Assembly (NCBI RefSeq): GCF_023161965.1
Contig: NZ_JALNTY010000003.1
Location: 43,271-107,270, forward strand
Direction: 5' to 3'
DNA: 64,000 nt
From: Anaerosoma tenue
GTDB taxonomy: Bacteria > Actinomycetota > Coriobacteriia > Anaerosomatales > Anaerosomataceae
Shown one piece after another: positions 1-4,855 of this stretch (position 1 is its first letter; each line of letters starts with the position of its first letter). The position numbers were made by a program, and so were the translations under genes. The notes beneath the pieces are model-generated. The model worked only from the letters and a program-made list of their open reading frames with translations, searched no databases and was not told where the DNA came from.

Positions 1-730
1 AGGTATAGCCGAACTGCTCGAGGTAGCGGCTGTTGATGCCGTAGCTGGAGATCTCACCGTTGTGGACGATCGACCAGTCCAGCAGGGTGAACGGATGTGC
101 CCCGCCCCACCAGCCCGGGGTGTTGGTGGGGAACCGGTTGTGCCCTACCCACGTGTGGCCCTCGTACTCCTCCAGCCGGAAGTAGCGCCCGATCTCCTCC
201 GGGAAGCCCACGCCCTTGAACGCGCCCATGTTCTTGCCCGAGGAAGCCACGAACGCACCGTCTACGCGTGCGTTGATCGACATCACAACGCCCACGACGT
301 AGTCCTCGGCGGTCATCTCCCGCTCCTCCAGCACCTCAGGGTACGGCTGCAGGAAGTACCGCCAGAGCAGCGGGGCATCGGTGATCCCCTTCACCGGTCG
401 CGTAGGCATCGGCTCGGCCACCTCGATGGCGAAGTTCTCCCTCAGCAGCCCCTCGGCCTCATCCTTCGCGCGAAGGTCGTGGTACATCATGTGGAAACAG
501 AAGTGGTCGGGGAACTCGGGATAGATCCCGTAGCCGGCGAACCCGCCGCCCAGCCCGTTGCCACGGTCGCGCTGCACGGCCATCGCCCTGATGGGCTCCT
601 CGCCGCTCATGAGCGCTCCGCTCTCATCGCAGATGCCCATGAGGCCGCAGCCACCGTGGATCTTGTAGGGGGATTCCTCCCTGTACCGGTCGGGCGAGAA
701 ACCGTCGTATCGACCAAGATCGTACGCCAT
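1..730 (-). CDS. Glutamate synthase domain 1-like class II glutamine amidotransferase (partial, 3' end outside window)
   Basis: The reading frame opens with ATG at 730, behind a strong AAGGAG, and runs off the left edge, leaving about 243 codons. It matches the stand-alone amidotransferase domain of archaeal-type glutamate synthases, which release ammonia from glutamine for glutamate formation. The probable nucleophile is Cys28 in GGCGLMGI, after a short leader that would have to be removed, as is usual in this family. Further conserved stretches are RGNGLGGGFAGYGIYPE, the VGHNRFPTN motif and WSIVHNGEISSYG. The gene starts 5 bp after the HdrB-HdrC fusion stop, so the two are almost certainly co-transcribed. 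The remaining synthase domains would be expected to the left of the window. The family call is secure; the exact substrate and electron donor are inferred. Confidence 0.85.
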   Translation of the reverse strand, partial: MAYDLGRYDGFSPDRYREESPYKIHGGCGLMGICDESGALMSGEEPIRAMAVQRDRGNGLGGGFAGYGIYPEFPDHFCFHMMYHDLRAKDEAEGLLRENFAIEVAEPMPTRPVKGITDAPLLWRYFLQPYPEVLEEREMTAEDYVVGVVMSINARVDGAFVASSGKNMGAFKGVGFPEEIGRYFRLEEYEGHTWVGHNRFPTNTPGWWGGAHPFTLLDWSIVHNGEISSYGINSRYLEQFGYT

Positions 731-735
731 GACCC

Positions 736-2085
736 TCACTCCTTCTCCGTGCCGTCCGCTGCGCCCACCGTGGGTGAGAGCAGTCGGGCGACCGCGTCCC
801 CGCCACCTGCCGGCAGCGGGTCAAGTCCGAGCTTCTTGCGTGCCGACTCCCTGGGCTTGCCCAGCGCGCCGGTCTTGAGGAACTCCGCATACGCCGCACC
901 CACCGCCTCGGGGCCCGCGCCGCGCTCTAGGGCAAGCTCCTTGAGCTGCCTGAACACTCCGGCCATACCGATGCGGCTGTGGCACATCTCCTGGCACGTG
1001 TAGCACTCGATGCACTTCCAGAGCTGGCCCTCAGCGATGACGCCATCGAGGCGGCCGGCCAGGAGGTCCGCGATGATCTCGTTCGGCTGGAAGGCGGGGT
1101 CGACCTTGCAGACGGGACAGTCGTCCTTGCACGCCTGGCAGGCGTCGCACTTGGCCAGCAGGCCCACATCGAAGTGCTCGGCAAGCCGCCGCTTCTCCTC
1201 CGACCGAGCCTTCCAGCGATCGAAGAACGGGTCGACCGACACACGGTGCATGCCGAGGCCGAGCTCTTCGGGCTCATGGCCCATCGCGAGTGCCACCAAC
1301 TCCGAAAGGTAGAAGACCGGCACGTGCACGTCTTCGTTGGCCCTCTGGAGCGCAGCCTGGTTGAGGTCGAACTGCTGGAAGCAGCTCGGGCAGACCACCA
1401 CGAGCGCGTCGGCGCCTTCGTTCTGCACATCGGCAAGCTTCCTGCGAGCGAACGCGAGCGACCCCTCCCGCTCGCCCACCCTGTCGAGCGCGCCTCCGCA
1501 GCACTGCATCTTGGTGGTGTAGTCCACCACCTGCGCGCCCAGAGCGGAGACGAGCTCCTCCACCTTCGTAGGGTGCAGCGGGTCGTCCCACCGGACGGCC
1601 GGCTGGGGACGCAACAGATGACAGCCGTAATGTACGGCGACCCGCATGCCCCACAGCGGCCGTGTCACGCGCGTGCTCAACGCGCCTGCACCCACCGTGT
1701 CCGCGAGCCACTCGGCGAAGTGCGCGATCTCGAGATCGCCCGTGTAGCGGAGGTCTTCCGAGGCAAGGCGCTCGTTGATTGCGTCGCGGTCACGCCACTC
1801 GGCGCGGAGGTGGCTCGCGGCCTCCTTGAAAGTCGAGTAGCAGCCGTTGCAGGGCGTCACCACGCCAAGACCGGCCTTCTCGACGATGGCCAGGTTCCGG
1901 GCCGCGGCGGTATAGAAGGCGTCCTCGTCGTTCGCCTTCACGAGCGTACCCTCGGGGCAACACGTGTGGCCCGCGAGTTCGTGCACCATGGCGCCGAGGT
2001 CGTCAAAGACCACACGGGTCGCCTTCTCGATGAACGGGAACCTCGCCGGGATCGTGCACCCCCAGAAGACCGCGAACTCCCTCAT
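736..2085 (-). CDS. Heterodisulfide reductase-like HdrB-HdrC fusion iron-sulfur protein
   Basis: The protein is about 449 residues and joins two modules found separately in methanogens. The N-terminal part carries two CCG domains (TCCPEG, TPCNGCY; then YGCHLL, QCCGG, CPSCFQQ), which bind the unusual HdrB clusters. The C-terminal part carries two CX2CX2CX3C ferredoxin motifs (CDACQACKDDC and CIECYTCQEMC) like HdrC. Non-methanogens use such proteins as electron-transfer subunits. Its position 5 bp ahead of a glutamate synthase domain suggests it delivers or bifurcates electrons for that enzyme; this is inference. ATG at 2085 is preferred, with AGAAGG upstream, but an in-frame GTG at 2094 is possible. 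A terminator and two-hairpin leader precede the gene, so it is probably controlled by attenuation. Confidence 0.85.
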   Translation of the reverse strand: MREFAVFWGCTIPARFPFIEKATRVVFDDLGAMVHELAGHTCCPEGTLVKANDEDAFYTAAARNLAIVEKAGLGVVTPCNGCYSTFKEAASHLRAEWRDRDAINERLASEDLRYTGDLEIAHFAEWLADTVGAGALSTRVTRPLWGMRVAVHYGCHLLRPQPAVRWDDPLHPTKVEELVSALGAQVVDYTTKMQCCGGALDRVGEREGSLAFARRKLADVQNEGADALVVVCPSCFQQFDLNQAALQRANEDVHVPVFYLSELVALAMGHEPEELGLGMHRVSVDPFFDRWKARSEEKRRLAEHFDVGLLAKCDACQACKDDCPVCKVDPAFQPNEIIADLLAGRLDGVIAEGQLWKCIECYTCQEMCHSRIGMAGVFRQLKELALERGAGPEAVGAAYAEFLKTGALGKPRESARKKLGLDPLPAGGGDAVARLLSPTVGAADGTEKE

Positions 2086-2114
2086 CCGTCCCACCTTCTC
2101 ATCTCACCGGACAA

Positions 2115-2155
2115 CAAAAAACGCCCACTCGGACCGCTTGGGTCCGTGTGAGCGT
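2115..2155 (-). terminator. Rho-independent terminator in the hdrBC leader
   Basis: On the minus strand a 15-bp near-perfect stem (2141-2155 pairing with 2121-2135, one A-A mismatch and one wobble) is followed by six T residues. It ends only 30 bp before the hdrBC start. That leaves almost no room for a separate promoter, so it more likely gates readthrough into hdrBC than simply ending the upstream gene. Confidence 0.85.
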
Positions 2156-2193
2156 CTTTGCTCATCATGCTATGGCGGCTCGCCGTTGAGCCG
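2149..2193 (-). promoter_or_regulatory. Two-hairpin ANTAR-type antiterminator motif
   Basis: Two small hairpins with six-base loops lie just before the terminator. P1 (2176-2193) has the perfect stem CGGCTC/GAGCCG and loop AACGGC. P2 (2149-2164) has stem TGAGC/GCTCA and loop AAAGAC. Both loops have A at position 1 and G at position 4, the established signature of RNAs bound by ANTAR regulators such as EutV and NasR. The 3' strand of P2 is part of the 5' arm of the terminator, so P2 and the terminator exclude each other. A gene for an ANTAR response regulator lies 0.7 kb away. That this RNA is its target is inferred. Confidence 0.7.
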
Positions 2194-2201
2194 GTGCAGG
2201 T

Positions 2202-2207
2202 AGTGTA
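2202..2207 (-). promoter_or_regulatory. Extended -10 element for the hdrBC leader
   Basis: TGCTACACT on the minus strand resembles an extended -10 (TGn-TACACT). It would place the transcript start near 2195, just ahead of the two-hairpin motif. No convincing -35 box was found. Readthrough from the upstream gene is the alternative. Confidence 0.4.
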
Positions 2208-2248
2208 GCAGAGCGAGAGCGTCCTGGAAACCCGCCCGAAACGAAACG

Positions 2249-2614
2249 TCAGTCGTTCAGACGCTCCAACACCCGGCCGTACTCCGCCTGATGCGTCACG
2301 ATGATGTCATCGGGCGTACCCCACGACCGAGCGCGCCGCGCCAACACCTGCGCGGCGGCCATGAGGTCCTCTCGCTTGGGTGCGTCCCAGCTGCCGCCGA
2401 CTTGCGAAAGCGCCGTGCGGATCGCGCCGTTCACGCTCTTGCGTACGGACTGATCGTCCCACGTGGTTCCCATCTTCTGCTTCATCCGGGTGAACGTCTG
2501 CTGCTGCGCGTGATAGAAGCAGTCGGCGAGCAGATCGCGTGCGCGAGCACCGTCCACATCGTCAAGCATGGTGGGGGTTGGGCGCCAAAGCCCGAAGTCT
2601 TCGTTCGTCGCCAT
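2249..2614 (-). CDS. Conserved-looking protein of unknown function (121 aa)
   Basis: This soluble protein of 121 residues is rich in Ala, Arg and Asp and has no signal peptide or membrane segment. ATG at 2614 follows a good AGGAAGTG ribosome binding site, and codon use matches the neighbours, so the gene is credible. I do not recognise the family. It looks helical, with an internal DDVDGARARDLLADCFYHAQ segment and a YGRVLERLND C-terminus. It lies between the pdtaRS locus and the hdrBC-glt leader on the same strand. No function is assigned. Confidence 0.75.
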   Translation of the reverse strand: MATNEDFGLWRPTPTMLDDVDGARARDLLADCFYHAQQQTFTRMKQKMGTTWDDQSVRKSVNGAIRTALSQVGGSWDAPKREDLMAAAQVLARRARSWGTPDDIIVTHQAEYGRVLERLND

Positions 2615-2860: not shown

Positions 2861-3430
2861 TCATCCCTCGGCGTCGGATGCCAGCACGATCGCCTCGGCC
2901 ACCTGCTTCAGCGTCATGCGCCGGTCCATCGCAAGCTTCTGCAGACGGCGGAACGCCTCGGGCTCGCTCATGCCCTTCTGCATGAGCACGCCTTTGGCCC
3001 GGTCGAGCGCCTTGCGCATCTCAAGCCGCTCGGCCAGGTCGTCGACCTCGCCCTCGAGCGCACGCGCTTCGGCGAACCTGGAGACGGCGACCGTCATGGC
3101 CGGCACGATGTCGGCACGGGTGAACGGCTTCACCACATATGCCATCGCGCCCGCCGCGGTGGCCTCTTCCACGTACGACTGCTGGGAGAACGCCGTGACC
3201 ATCACCACCGGCGCGAGCTTCTCCTCGCCGATCACGCGCGCGGCCTCCAGCCCGTCAACGCGCGGCATCTTCACGTCGAGGAACACAACGTCCGGCTTGA
3301 GCTCGCGTACCCGCTCGATGGCCTCCGCACCGTCCCGTGCCTCGGCGACCACCTCGTGGCCCTCCTCGGCGAGCATCTCGCGAAGGTCCATCCGGATAAG
3401 CGCTTCGTCCTCTGCGATGAGCACCCGCAT
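2861..3430 (-). CDS. pdtaR: ANTAR-domain response regulator (PdtaR-like)
   Basis: The 189-residue protein has a receiver domain followed by an ANTAR RNA-binding domain. The receiver shows the acidic pair E7/D8, phospho-acceptor D52 in FLDVKMP, T79 and K101. The ANTAR region (about 130-183) includes AKGVLM at 145-150 and ends in QVAEAIVL. Proteins of this family are phosphorylated by a PdtaS-type kinase, dimerise and bind paired hexaloop hairpins in nascent RNA to prevent termination. The kinase gene starts 9 bp upstream on the same strand. A matching two-hairpin leader lies at 2149-2193. The family assignment is firm. Confidence 0.95.
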   Translation of the reverse strand: MRVLIAEDEALIRMDLREMLAEEGHEVVAEARDGAEAIERVRELKPDVVFLDVKMPRVDGLEAARVIGEEKLAPVVMVTAFSQQSYVEEATAAGAMAYVVKPFTRADIVPAMTVAVSRFAEARALEGEVDDLAERLEMRKALDRAKGVLMQKGMSEPEAFRRLQKLAMDRRMTLKQVAEAIVLASDAEG

Positions 3431-3439
3431 CGTATCTCC

Positions 3440-4855
3440 TCAGTCGGTCTCGTCGATCGGAACGGTCACCGAGATCACCGTCTCGGCGCCCGACCGGAAC
3501 GACAGCGTACCGCGAAGGTCGTCTTCCGCCACTGTCTTCACGATCGCCAGCCCCAGGTGTGCTGACGATTCCACCTGGAACGTATCGGGAAGCGCGCCGC
3601 CGCTGTCCCGCACCGTGAGTGAGACGCTCCGGCTGTCGCGCGCGAGGAAGACGGTCACGTCCCCGCCGCCCGCCGGACCCACACCGTGCTCGATCGCGTT
3701 GTGCACGAGCTCCGCCGCTACCAGAGCGAGCGACGTGGCCACCTGCGCCGGAACGAGACCCGTGGCGCCATCCACGGCGATCCTGATACCGCTGTCTGCA
3801 CCCGTGAGGCCGCGACGCACCATGTCCACCACCGTGGACACCGCGGCCGCGAGGTCCACCGACTCGTCGGTTGACGACGCCAGCATCTCGTGAACCACCG
3901 CCATCGATGATACCCGCTCCACTGCTTCCTCGAGGGCGCGAGCCGCCTCGTCGCTCGATGACCGCCGGGCCTGGATGCGCAGCAGCGATGCGATCGTCTG
4001 GAGGTTGTTCTTCACCCGGTGATGCACCTCGCGGATCGCCATCTCCTTGACGTGCAACTCCTGCTCCCGGCGCACCGCATCGGTGACGTCCTCGACGAGC
4101 ACGAGCATCCGATCGGCCAGTGCCACCGTTCGGTACCGCAACGAACGCCCCTGCACGTTGACGGTCTTCTCCCGCGCACCGTCGGTGCCGATCACCGGCG
4201 CCACGGCAAGAGCCCCTCCCGGGAGCGCCGAGGCGGGACCACCCACCAGCTGGCTCTCCATGCCGGCGAGGCGCATCGTGTTCACGGCGTTGGGGCTGGC
4301 GTACACCACCGCGCCCGTGGCGTCGATCTCGAGAACGCCGTCACCGGCGAGGCGCGTGGTAGCGTACGGCTCCTCGGTGTCGATGTCGCGGATCGGACCG
4401 CGCTGCAATCGCTCGAGCAGCAGCTGCGCAAGGCGCATGAACGCCACTTCCATCTTGCCCGGTGCCTCCGAGACCGCCTGGCCGAGGTGCCGGACCAGGA
4501 TGGCGTACGGACGCCCGTCACCGCCCACGGGATAGGCGGTGGACGAGAACGCGATTCCCCGCCGTGTGCGTCTCTTGACGTCGCATGAAGGGGCGCCGGT
4601 CGTGAGGGTGTCGTACGCCTCGGGCTCGTCGTCGCGATCGATCACCCGGCCGACGCGTGTCGTTGGGATCGCCGAACCCGCGGTCATCGGCCGTGCGTCG
4701 GCGATCACCACGAGCGCGCCGTCGGATCCCGGCACGAGCAGCGCGACATCCCCGTACCCCAGGTCGGCGGCCAGCTGCAGGTTCTCGGCCACGTTCCGCA
4801 CGTGGACGCGCGCGTCCTCCGACAACTCCTCGACCATCTGCGCCAGCGTATCCAT
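3440..4855 (-). CDS. pdtaS: PdtaS-like sensor histidine kinase (HisKA_2 family)
   Basis: The 471-residue soluble kinase has a GAF-like sensor region (about 1-145), a PAS-like region (about 165-265), a HisKA_2 dimerisation segment with EVHHRVKNN at 277-285 (probable phospho-His 279) and an HATPase domain with ELVHNAIEH at 382-390 and GLAIV at 435. It should phosphorylate the adjacent ANTAR regulator. There are no membrane segments, so the signal is probably cytoplasmic. The frame can be extended 60 codons upstream, but that would run through the divergent gene. ATG 4855 sits 6 bp after a consensus -10, suggesting a leaderless mRNA. Confidence 0.93.
   Translation of the reverse strand: MDTLAQMVEELSEDARVHVRNVAENLQLAADLGYGDVALLVPGSDGALVVIADARPMTAGSAIPTTRVGRVIDRDDEPEAYDTLTTGAPSCDVKRRTRRGIAFSSTAYPVGGDGRPYAILVRHLGQAVSEAPGKMEVAFMRLAQLLLERLQRGPIRDIDTEEPYATTRLAGDGVLEIDATGAVVYASPNAVNTMRLAGMESQLVGGPASALPGGALAVAPVIGTDGAREKTVNVQGRSLRYRTVALADRMLVLVEDVTDAVRREQELHVKEMAIREVHHRVKNNLQTIASLLRIQARRSSSDEAARALEEAVERVSSMAVVHEMLASSTDESVDLAAAVSTVVDMVRRGLTGADSGIRIAVDGATGLVPAQVATSLALVAAELVHNAIEHGVGPAGGGDVTVFLARDSRSVSLTVRDSGGALPDTFQVESSAHLGLAIVKTVAEDDLRGTLSFRSGAETVISVTVPIDETD

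Follow-up and report, generated by a model that had tools for sequence, protein, structure and literature searches.

Does the short leader in front of the hdrBC-glutamate synthase operon of Anaerosoma tenue act as an RNA switch operated by an ANTAR protein? The question was raised by an earlier note on a 64,000-nucleotide stretch of this genome (the window: contig NZ_JALNTY010000003.1, positions 43,271 to 107,270, here G000:C3:43271-107270; assembly of 2.1 Mb, 99% complete), which described two adjacent hairpins, P1 and P2, just before an intrinsic terminator and proposed that the nearby PdtaS/PdtaR pair controls the operon by antitermination. We consider it highly probable, from comparative sequence analysis, that an ANTAR-type antitermination leader gates the operon via PdtaR. 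The architecture of the leader, the mutual exclusion of its structures, their conservation and covariation, and the co-occurrence of the leader with an ANTAR protein were observed directly. The leader is composed of the following elements:

2176-2193, minus strand: P1 hairpin, CGGCTC-AACGGC-GAGCCG, with a 6-bp stem and the hexaloop AACGGC
2165-2175, minus strand: P1-P2 linker of 11 nt
2149-2164, minus strand: P2 hairpin, the predicted antiterminator, TGAGC-AAAGAC-GCTCA, with a 5-bp stem and the hexaloop AAAGAC
2116-2155, minus strand: intrinsic terminator, with a 15-position stem including one mismatch (2121-2155) and a T-run at 2121-2116

The positions and loops of both hairpins are exactly those given by the earlier note. 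Read from 2155 to 2116, the terminator is ACGCTCACACGGACC-CAAGC-GGTCCGAGTGGGCGT followed by TTTTT, and its 5′ arm contains GCTCA, the 3′ arm of P2, as had been claimed. P2 and the terminator are mutually exclusive, because GCTCA is common to both. ANTAR proteins recognise paired hexaloops with A at position 1 and G at position 4 (A1/G4), and P2 overlaps the 5′ arm of the terminator (PMC3369931, PMC8934654); the linker measures 5-12 nt in the eut leaders of E. faecalis (PMC3369931) and 2-25 nt in actinobacteria (PMC8164766). The leader of A. tenue shows the following sequence properties expected of an ANTAR-target RNA: two hairpins of at least 3 bp, hexaloops, A1/G4, a short linker, exclusion between P2 and the terminator, and an ANTAR protein in the genome. 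Rfam gave no RNA family at the leader, neither at the gathering threshold over the window nor with E values up to 1 over the leader.

The predicted energies in this leader were -23.5 kcal/mol for the terminator, -9.7 for P1 and -5.6 for P2 (medians across leaders -25.3, -9.7 and -5.6, respectively). The whole leader (123 nt) folded into the terminator state (-52.1 kcal/mol, z -3.58), and the centroid structure of the leader lacking the terminator 3′ arm contained P1 and P2. The terminator was the minimum-energy fold in 45 of 45 leaders; the default should therefore be 'stop', and P2 should need protein.

Chance expectation was estimated with Markov-randomised windows. Scanning of both strands of the window revealed a single dual A1/G4 hexaloop whose stems both reach 5 bp or more, compared to 0.7 per randomised window, and the dual hexaloop alone was rejected as evidence for this reason. 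A dual hexaloop in which the P2 arm also forms part of a terminator was found once in the window and in none of 60 randomised windows. Consequently, the combination, rather than the dual loop, is remarkable. The remaining doubt on the observation was removed by the conservation of the motif in relatives.

Relatives were gathered by protein and not by RNA (60 loci with an HdrBC relative, labelled as Coriobacteriia, Anaerosomatales or Actinobacteria metagenome-assembled genomes). P1, P2 and a downstream terminator were present before hdrBC in 45 sequences (44 of the 60 loci plus the window), and a covariance model recovered further leaders in L010, L041 and L042. Covariation was computed on 43 distinct sequences for the hairpins and on 40 for the terminator. 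In P1, both sides had changed in 6 of 7 pairs. The hairpins together, P2 included in these whole-structure counts, gave 44 cells changed on both sides (13.4 ± 2.7 in shuffled alignments, reached in 0 of 500), and their covariation score was 0.254, compared to at most 0.047 in slid controls. For the terminator, 10 of 14 pairs had changed on both sides, with 61 such cells vs. 28.5 shuffled (0 of 500). The covariance search that the earlier note had asked for thus showed covariation in P1 and the terminator, and recurrence of the motif before hdrBC. The P2 core GAGC/GCTC was invariant in the 43 sequences; GCTC must pair with GAGC in P2 and also with GGGC in the terminator. In L050 the terminator arm carries GGAGC instead, and the P2 and terminator pairings are both preserved.

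The earlier note had named a lack of conservation of the A1/G4 hexaloops as the result that would speak against its proposal. Since the motif table had been selected for G4, loop statistics were taken from folding with unconstrained loops. Among 73 six-base loops obtained in this way, A1 was present in 67 and G4 in 71, so that the loops are conserved; hexaloops were found on both hairpins in 28 of 43 relatives.

The proposed regulator and its kinase are encoded upstream of the leader:

2861-3430, minus strand: pdtaR, receiver-ANTAR response regulator (Pfam ANTAR, 4.1e-19)
3440-4855, minus strand: pdtaS, soluble histidine kinase, GAF_PdtaS - HisKA_2 - HATPase_c (GAF_PdtaS, 1.5e-22)

Pfam confirmed the PdtaS/PdtaR pair suggested at about 0.7 kb from the leader, the end of pdtaR lying 668 bp from P1. 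The genome encodes no ANTAR protein other than PdtaR. The closest solved relative of PdtaR is 1s8n (E 1.8e-63), annotated as 'putative antiterminator', which we take to be Rv1626/PdtaR of M. tuberculosis. Residues D52, T79 and K101 and most ANTAR contacts are conserved in approximately 30 of 31 homologues, and the H-box of PdtaS is conserved in every homologue covering it. At the positions of the RNA-contacting residues of EutV (PMC8934654), R142, K149, E160 and M172 are invariant in the 31 PdtaR homologues, R175 is present in 30 of them, and the K147 position is occupied by R. Binding of mycobacterial ANTAR proteins to such RNAs has been reported, according to a citation in PMC8164766. Mycobacterial PdtaS is reported to be inhibited by copper and nitric oxide (PMC8131098) and by heme (PMC11537054). 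A sensing cysteine was considered in PdtaS and rejected (Cys92 is present in only 13 of 25 homologues), and this search gave no convincing sensor.

Next, a covariance model built from P1, the linker and P2 (R1) was run over 298 Coriobacteriia genomes, which were also searched for Pfam ANTAR and for HdrBC. Strong R1 matches were found in 60 genomes, every one of them 55-117 nt upstream of hdrBC; ANTAR proteins were found in 73 genomes, one per genome, and HdrBC in 63. The motif was present at 60 of the 61 hdrBC genes with an assembled leader. The HdrBC genomes lacking an R1 match were G133 and G097, where contigs end, and G059, the sole real exception. Motif and ANTAR protein were both present in 59 genomes and both absent in 224, and only one of the 225 genomes lacking an ANTAR protein had the motif (G147, 64% complete). 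The association was strong (Fisher p = 1.4e-47 over the 298 genomes, a value in which kinship overstates independence).

These data bear on two other explanations. First, PdtaR might bind the dual hexaloop and act on translation or mRNA stability, the terminator being incidental; this mode has been put forward for those ANTAR RNAs of mycobacteria that extend over the ribosome-binding site. However, about 64 nt separate the end of P2 from the start codon in A. tenue, and the hdrBC match lies 55-117 nt downstream of the motif in all relatives; because of this distance, the ribosome-binding site is covered by neither hairpin. Compensatory changes, moreover, conserve the terminator, which has bases in common with P2. 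We regard this explanation as improbable. Second, the hairpins might serve some other RNA-binding protein or a small ligand, pdtaSR being a mere neighbour. The leader belongs to no Rfam family, and binding by PdtaR is argued from homology, both of which leave some room for such a regulator; yet motif presence goes with that of the single ANTAR protein in a genome, including cases with pdtaR on another contig, and the loops fit the published ANTAR recognition rule. A regulator other than PdtaR therefore seems very unlikely.

Where motif and ANTAR gene lay on one contig (47 genomes), they were always on the same strand with the ANTAR gene upstream. The distance from pdtaR to the motif varied from 37 nt to 14 kb (18 genomes within 150 nt), and the motif stayed at hdrBC throughout. 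Sequences that may set the start of the transcript lie between the two:

2202-2210, minus strand: extended -10 element TGCTACACT, with a predicted transcript start at about 2193-2197, the 5′ edge of P1
2227-2242, minus strand: tandem GTTTC-N6-GTTTC, a GlnR-like box with an 11-bp period; a further GTTTC abuts it at 2243-2247

In 43 of 45 leaders the extended -10 sequence TGNTANNNT precedes P1 by 6-11 nt, compared to 0.5% of random 30-nt stretches; the 5′ edge of P1 should therefore roughly mark the transcript start. This placement also bears on whether the stem and T-run might simply terminate the upstream pdtaS-pdtaR(-orf121) transcript, the two hairpins being fortuitous. pdtaR does share the strand of the motif and precede it, and in some relatives about 80-150 nt separate its end from the motif. 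Against this, a conserved promoter separates pdtaR from P1 in 43 of 45 loci, the motif remains with hdrBC at any distance from pdtaR within the 37 nt to 14 kb found, and P1 and the loops are conserved and covary. We give an upstream terminator of this kind hardly any credence.

Of the 45 leaders, 30 had the tandem GTTTC-N6-GTTTC upstream, compared to 0.6% of random 110-nt stretches. It ends either 19-20 or 30-33 nt before the -10 element, two registers approximately one 11-bp repeat apart. The exact tandem box has two copies in the 2.1-Mb genome, one here and one about 52 nt upstream of glnA (GAAAC-ACGCAC-GAAAC, L002 9753-9768, G000:C3:39753-39768). In 12 of the 16 relatives checked, the gene after glnA is of the OmpR family. 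The closest solved structures of the OmpR-family protein at the end of the operon are 8hig, 8hml and 8hih, matched via its DNA-binding domain; these are presumably GlnR structures. The earlier note had described neither the promoter nor the GlnR-like boxes, nor that the target is exclusive.

From these elements we propose the following mechanism for antitermination by PdtaR. As the conserved sequences suggest, an extended -10 promoter with GlnR-like boxes would start transcription close to the first base of P1. By default, the nascent RNA would form the terminator and stop about 75-80 nt after the start, as folding and the T-run predict. The soluble kinase PdtaS would phosphorylate PdtaR, and homology with EutV and NasR suggests that a dimer of phosphorylated PdtaR would bind both A1/G4 hexaloops, in P1 and in P2. 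By the same homology, PdtaR would hold P2 closed and make the terminator 5′ arm unavailable, and RNA polymerase would read into the hdrBC-glutamate synthase genes. The switch would be a dedicated one, because PdtaR is the only ANTAR protein and the model found the leader as the only strong target of PdtaR. 'Only target' means here the only target of R1 make; R1 would miss ANTAR RNAs of a different make, because it was built from these leaders. Ammonia assimilation could then be under two-key control, with a GlnR-like nitrogen regulator acting on initiation and the PdtaS signal on elongation. The antitermination control by PdtaS/PdtaR put forward in the earlier note is thus supported in silico by conservation, covariation and co-occurrence.

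Several observations weigh against this interpretation. P2 pairing is nearly invariant and hence gives little covariation evidence of its own. G replaces A1 in P1 of about a fifth of the relatives. In L022 (G059, about 4781-4796 in L022), P2 and the terminator are kept and P1 is lost. In PdtaR, four EutV contacts are replaced (Y164F, R168Q, N173D, and R177 by S, T, P or G). As for initiation, Pfam gave only Trans_reg_C in the OmpR-family protein, whose N-terminal half had no match, and GlnR-like control is a candidate role suggested by the box sequence and the DNA-binding-domain match. With regard to the replaced contacts, aligned 1s8n has F, Q, M, D, R and T at the positions corresponding to EutV contacts; Y164F, R168Q, N173D and the T at 177 are thus matched in mycobacterial PdtaR. 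The L022 leader provides a natural test of whether one hexaloop suffices.

The system resembles the eut leaders with EutV in Enterococcus faecalis, nasF with NasR and amiE with AmiR in its two A1/G4 hexaloop hairpins, its linker length, the overlap of P2 with the terminator and its receiver-ANTAR regulator. It differs from them in belonging to Coriobacteriia, in preceding an hdrBC-split glutamate synthase operon, in having one RNA and one ANTAR protein per genome, and in its predicted start at about P1. A 2012 study predicted ANTAR RNAs in front of glutamate synthase genes of Desulfotomaculum reducens, most terminator-type ANTAR RNA matches lying before nitrogen genes (PMC3369931), and an ANTAR regulator is present in the split glutamate synthase cluster Clo1313_2030-2036 of Clostridium thermocellum (PMC4676874). 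Both pair ANTAR regulation with glutamate synthase genes, as here, but both are Firmicutes. The operon of Coriobacteriia begins with hdrBC. PdtaS/PdtaR of M. tuberculosis are alike in the architecture of kinase and regulator and in the pattern at comparable RNA-contact residues. The targets and mode of mycobacterial ANTAR proteins are debated (translation; lipid, redox, iron and virulence genes; PMC8164766, PMC11537054, PMC8131098), whereas one conserved terminator-type target is found here. In GlnR boxes, half-sites of five bases (for example GTnAC and GAAAC) are separated by 6-bp spacers, and the A. tenue boxes share with those of actinomycete GlnR the half-sites at 11-bp steps (GAAAC/GTTTC, n6), the glnA and glutamate synthase promoters, and an OmpR-family gene beside glnA (PMC10704036). 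By contrast with actinomycete GlnR, the regulator here is the one lacking a Pfam match in its N-terminal half.

A survey of actinobacterial ANTAR RNAs reported few terminator-type RNAs, and its main text mentions neither Coriobacteriia, nor glutamate synthase, nor heterodisulfide reductase (PMC8164766). Our search of the available papers found none linking ANTAR regulation with Coriobacteriia. The antitermination principle is already known; the lineage, the operon partner hdrBC, the exclusivity and the promoter layer are new here. This adds a class-wide terminator-type ANTAR RNA to the few reported in actinobacteria and ties a glutamate synthase that contains HdrBC to one particular regulatory input. 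According to a 2021 study, the exact role of PdtaR in gene regulation is not known (PMC8131098); a PdtaR-type protein with one conserved textbook-terminator target and no other ANTAR protein beside it makes this unsettled function directly testable. We tentatively extend the proposal, in a form that we hold plausible though slightly short of probable: throughout the class, PdtaS/PdtaR may be essentially dedicated to gating the hdrBC-glutamate synthase by antitermination, with a transcript from P1 and initiation under separate, GlnR-like control, and this two-key input (nitrogen plus a second cytoplasmic signal, perhaps redox) could reflect the ancestral job of PdtaR in actinobacteria.

Outside the class, a 396-genome sample of the phylum contained one hdrBC leader with the motif (G592, the genome of L050); three further weak R1 matches in this sample were spurious. 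The record of G592 is labelled Slackia heliotrinireducens and placed outside the class; it has the same leader, with a compensated terminator stem (L050 4908-4991). The hdrBC-glutamate synthase operons of five other actinobacterial genomes (L047, L048, L051, L053, L055) had neither an ANTAR protein nor the motif. The genome of A. tenue contained no second strong R1 match. A wider regulon was considered and rejected: the weak matches (up to 14 bits in this genome, about 24-31 bits in others) lay in coding sequence lacking a terminator or before unrelated genes. In the hdrBC-glutamate synthase operons of deltaproteobacteria (L059-L062), R1 had no match in the leaders; these genomes hold 2-5 ANTAR proteins, and some of the leaders have a stem resembling an intrinsic terminator before hdrBC. 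Two loci (L115 and L116, genomes G061 and G107) have pdtaSR but no motif near pdtaR, and hdrBC was not found there; either the assemblies are incomplete or the target is a different one.

The genes downstream of the leader in the window are:

736-2094, minus strand: hdrBC-like gene, first of the operon, with the ATG probably at 2085; CCG domains and 4Fe-4S dicluster
1-739, minus strand: class-II glutamine amidotransferase gene, start only; the operon runs beyond the window

The remainder of the operon was analysed on L002 (G000:C3:30001-48500). Its order is hdrBC, class-II glutamine amidotransferase, flavin mononucleotide (FMN) glutamate synthase with a ferredoxin domain, GXGXG subunit, glnA and OmpR-family regulator, and the earlier description of an Hdr-linked glutamate synthase operon was right. 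The tandem box upstream of glnA overlaps a doubtful 217-aa open reading frame (ORF; L002 9729-10382), which may for this reason represent promoter sequence rather than a gene. A 121-aa ORF located between pdtaR and the leader (2249-2614, minus strand) had no Pfam match and was not found in the fetched relatives. The segment between the pdtaR stop and this ORF (2704-2856) contains 54-nt direct repeats (2706-2759 and 2764-2817, 91% identical) and an inverted partner of these repeats at 2833-2856.
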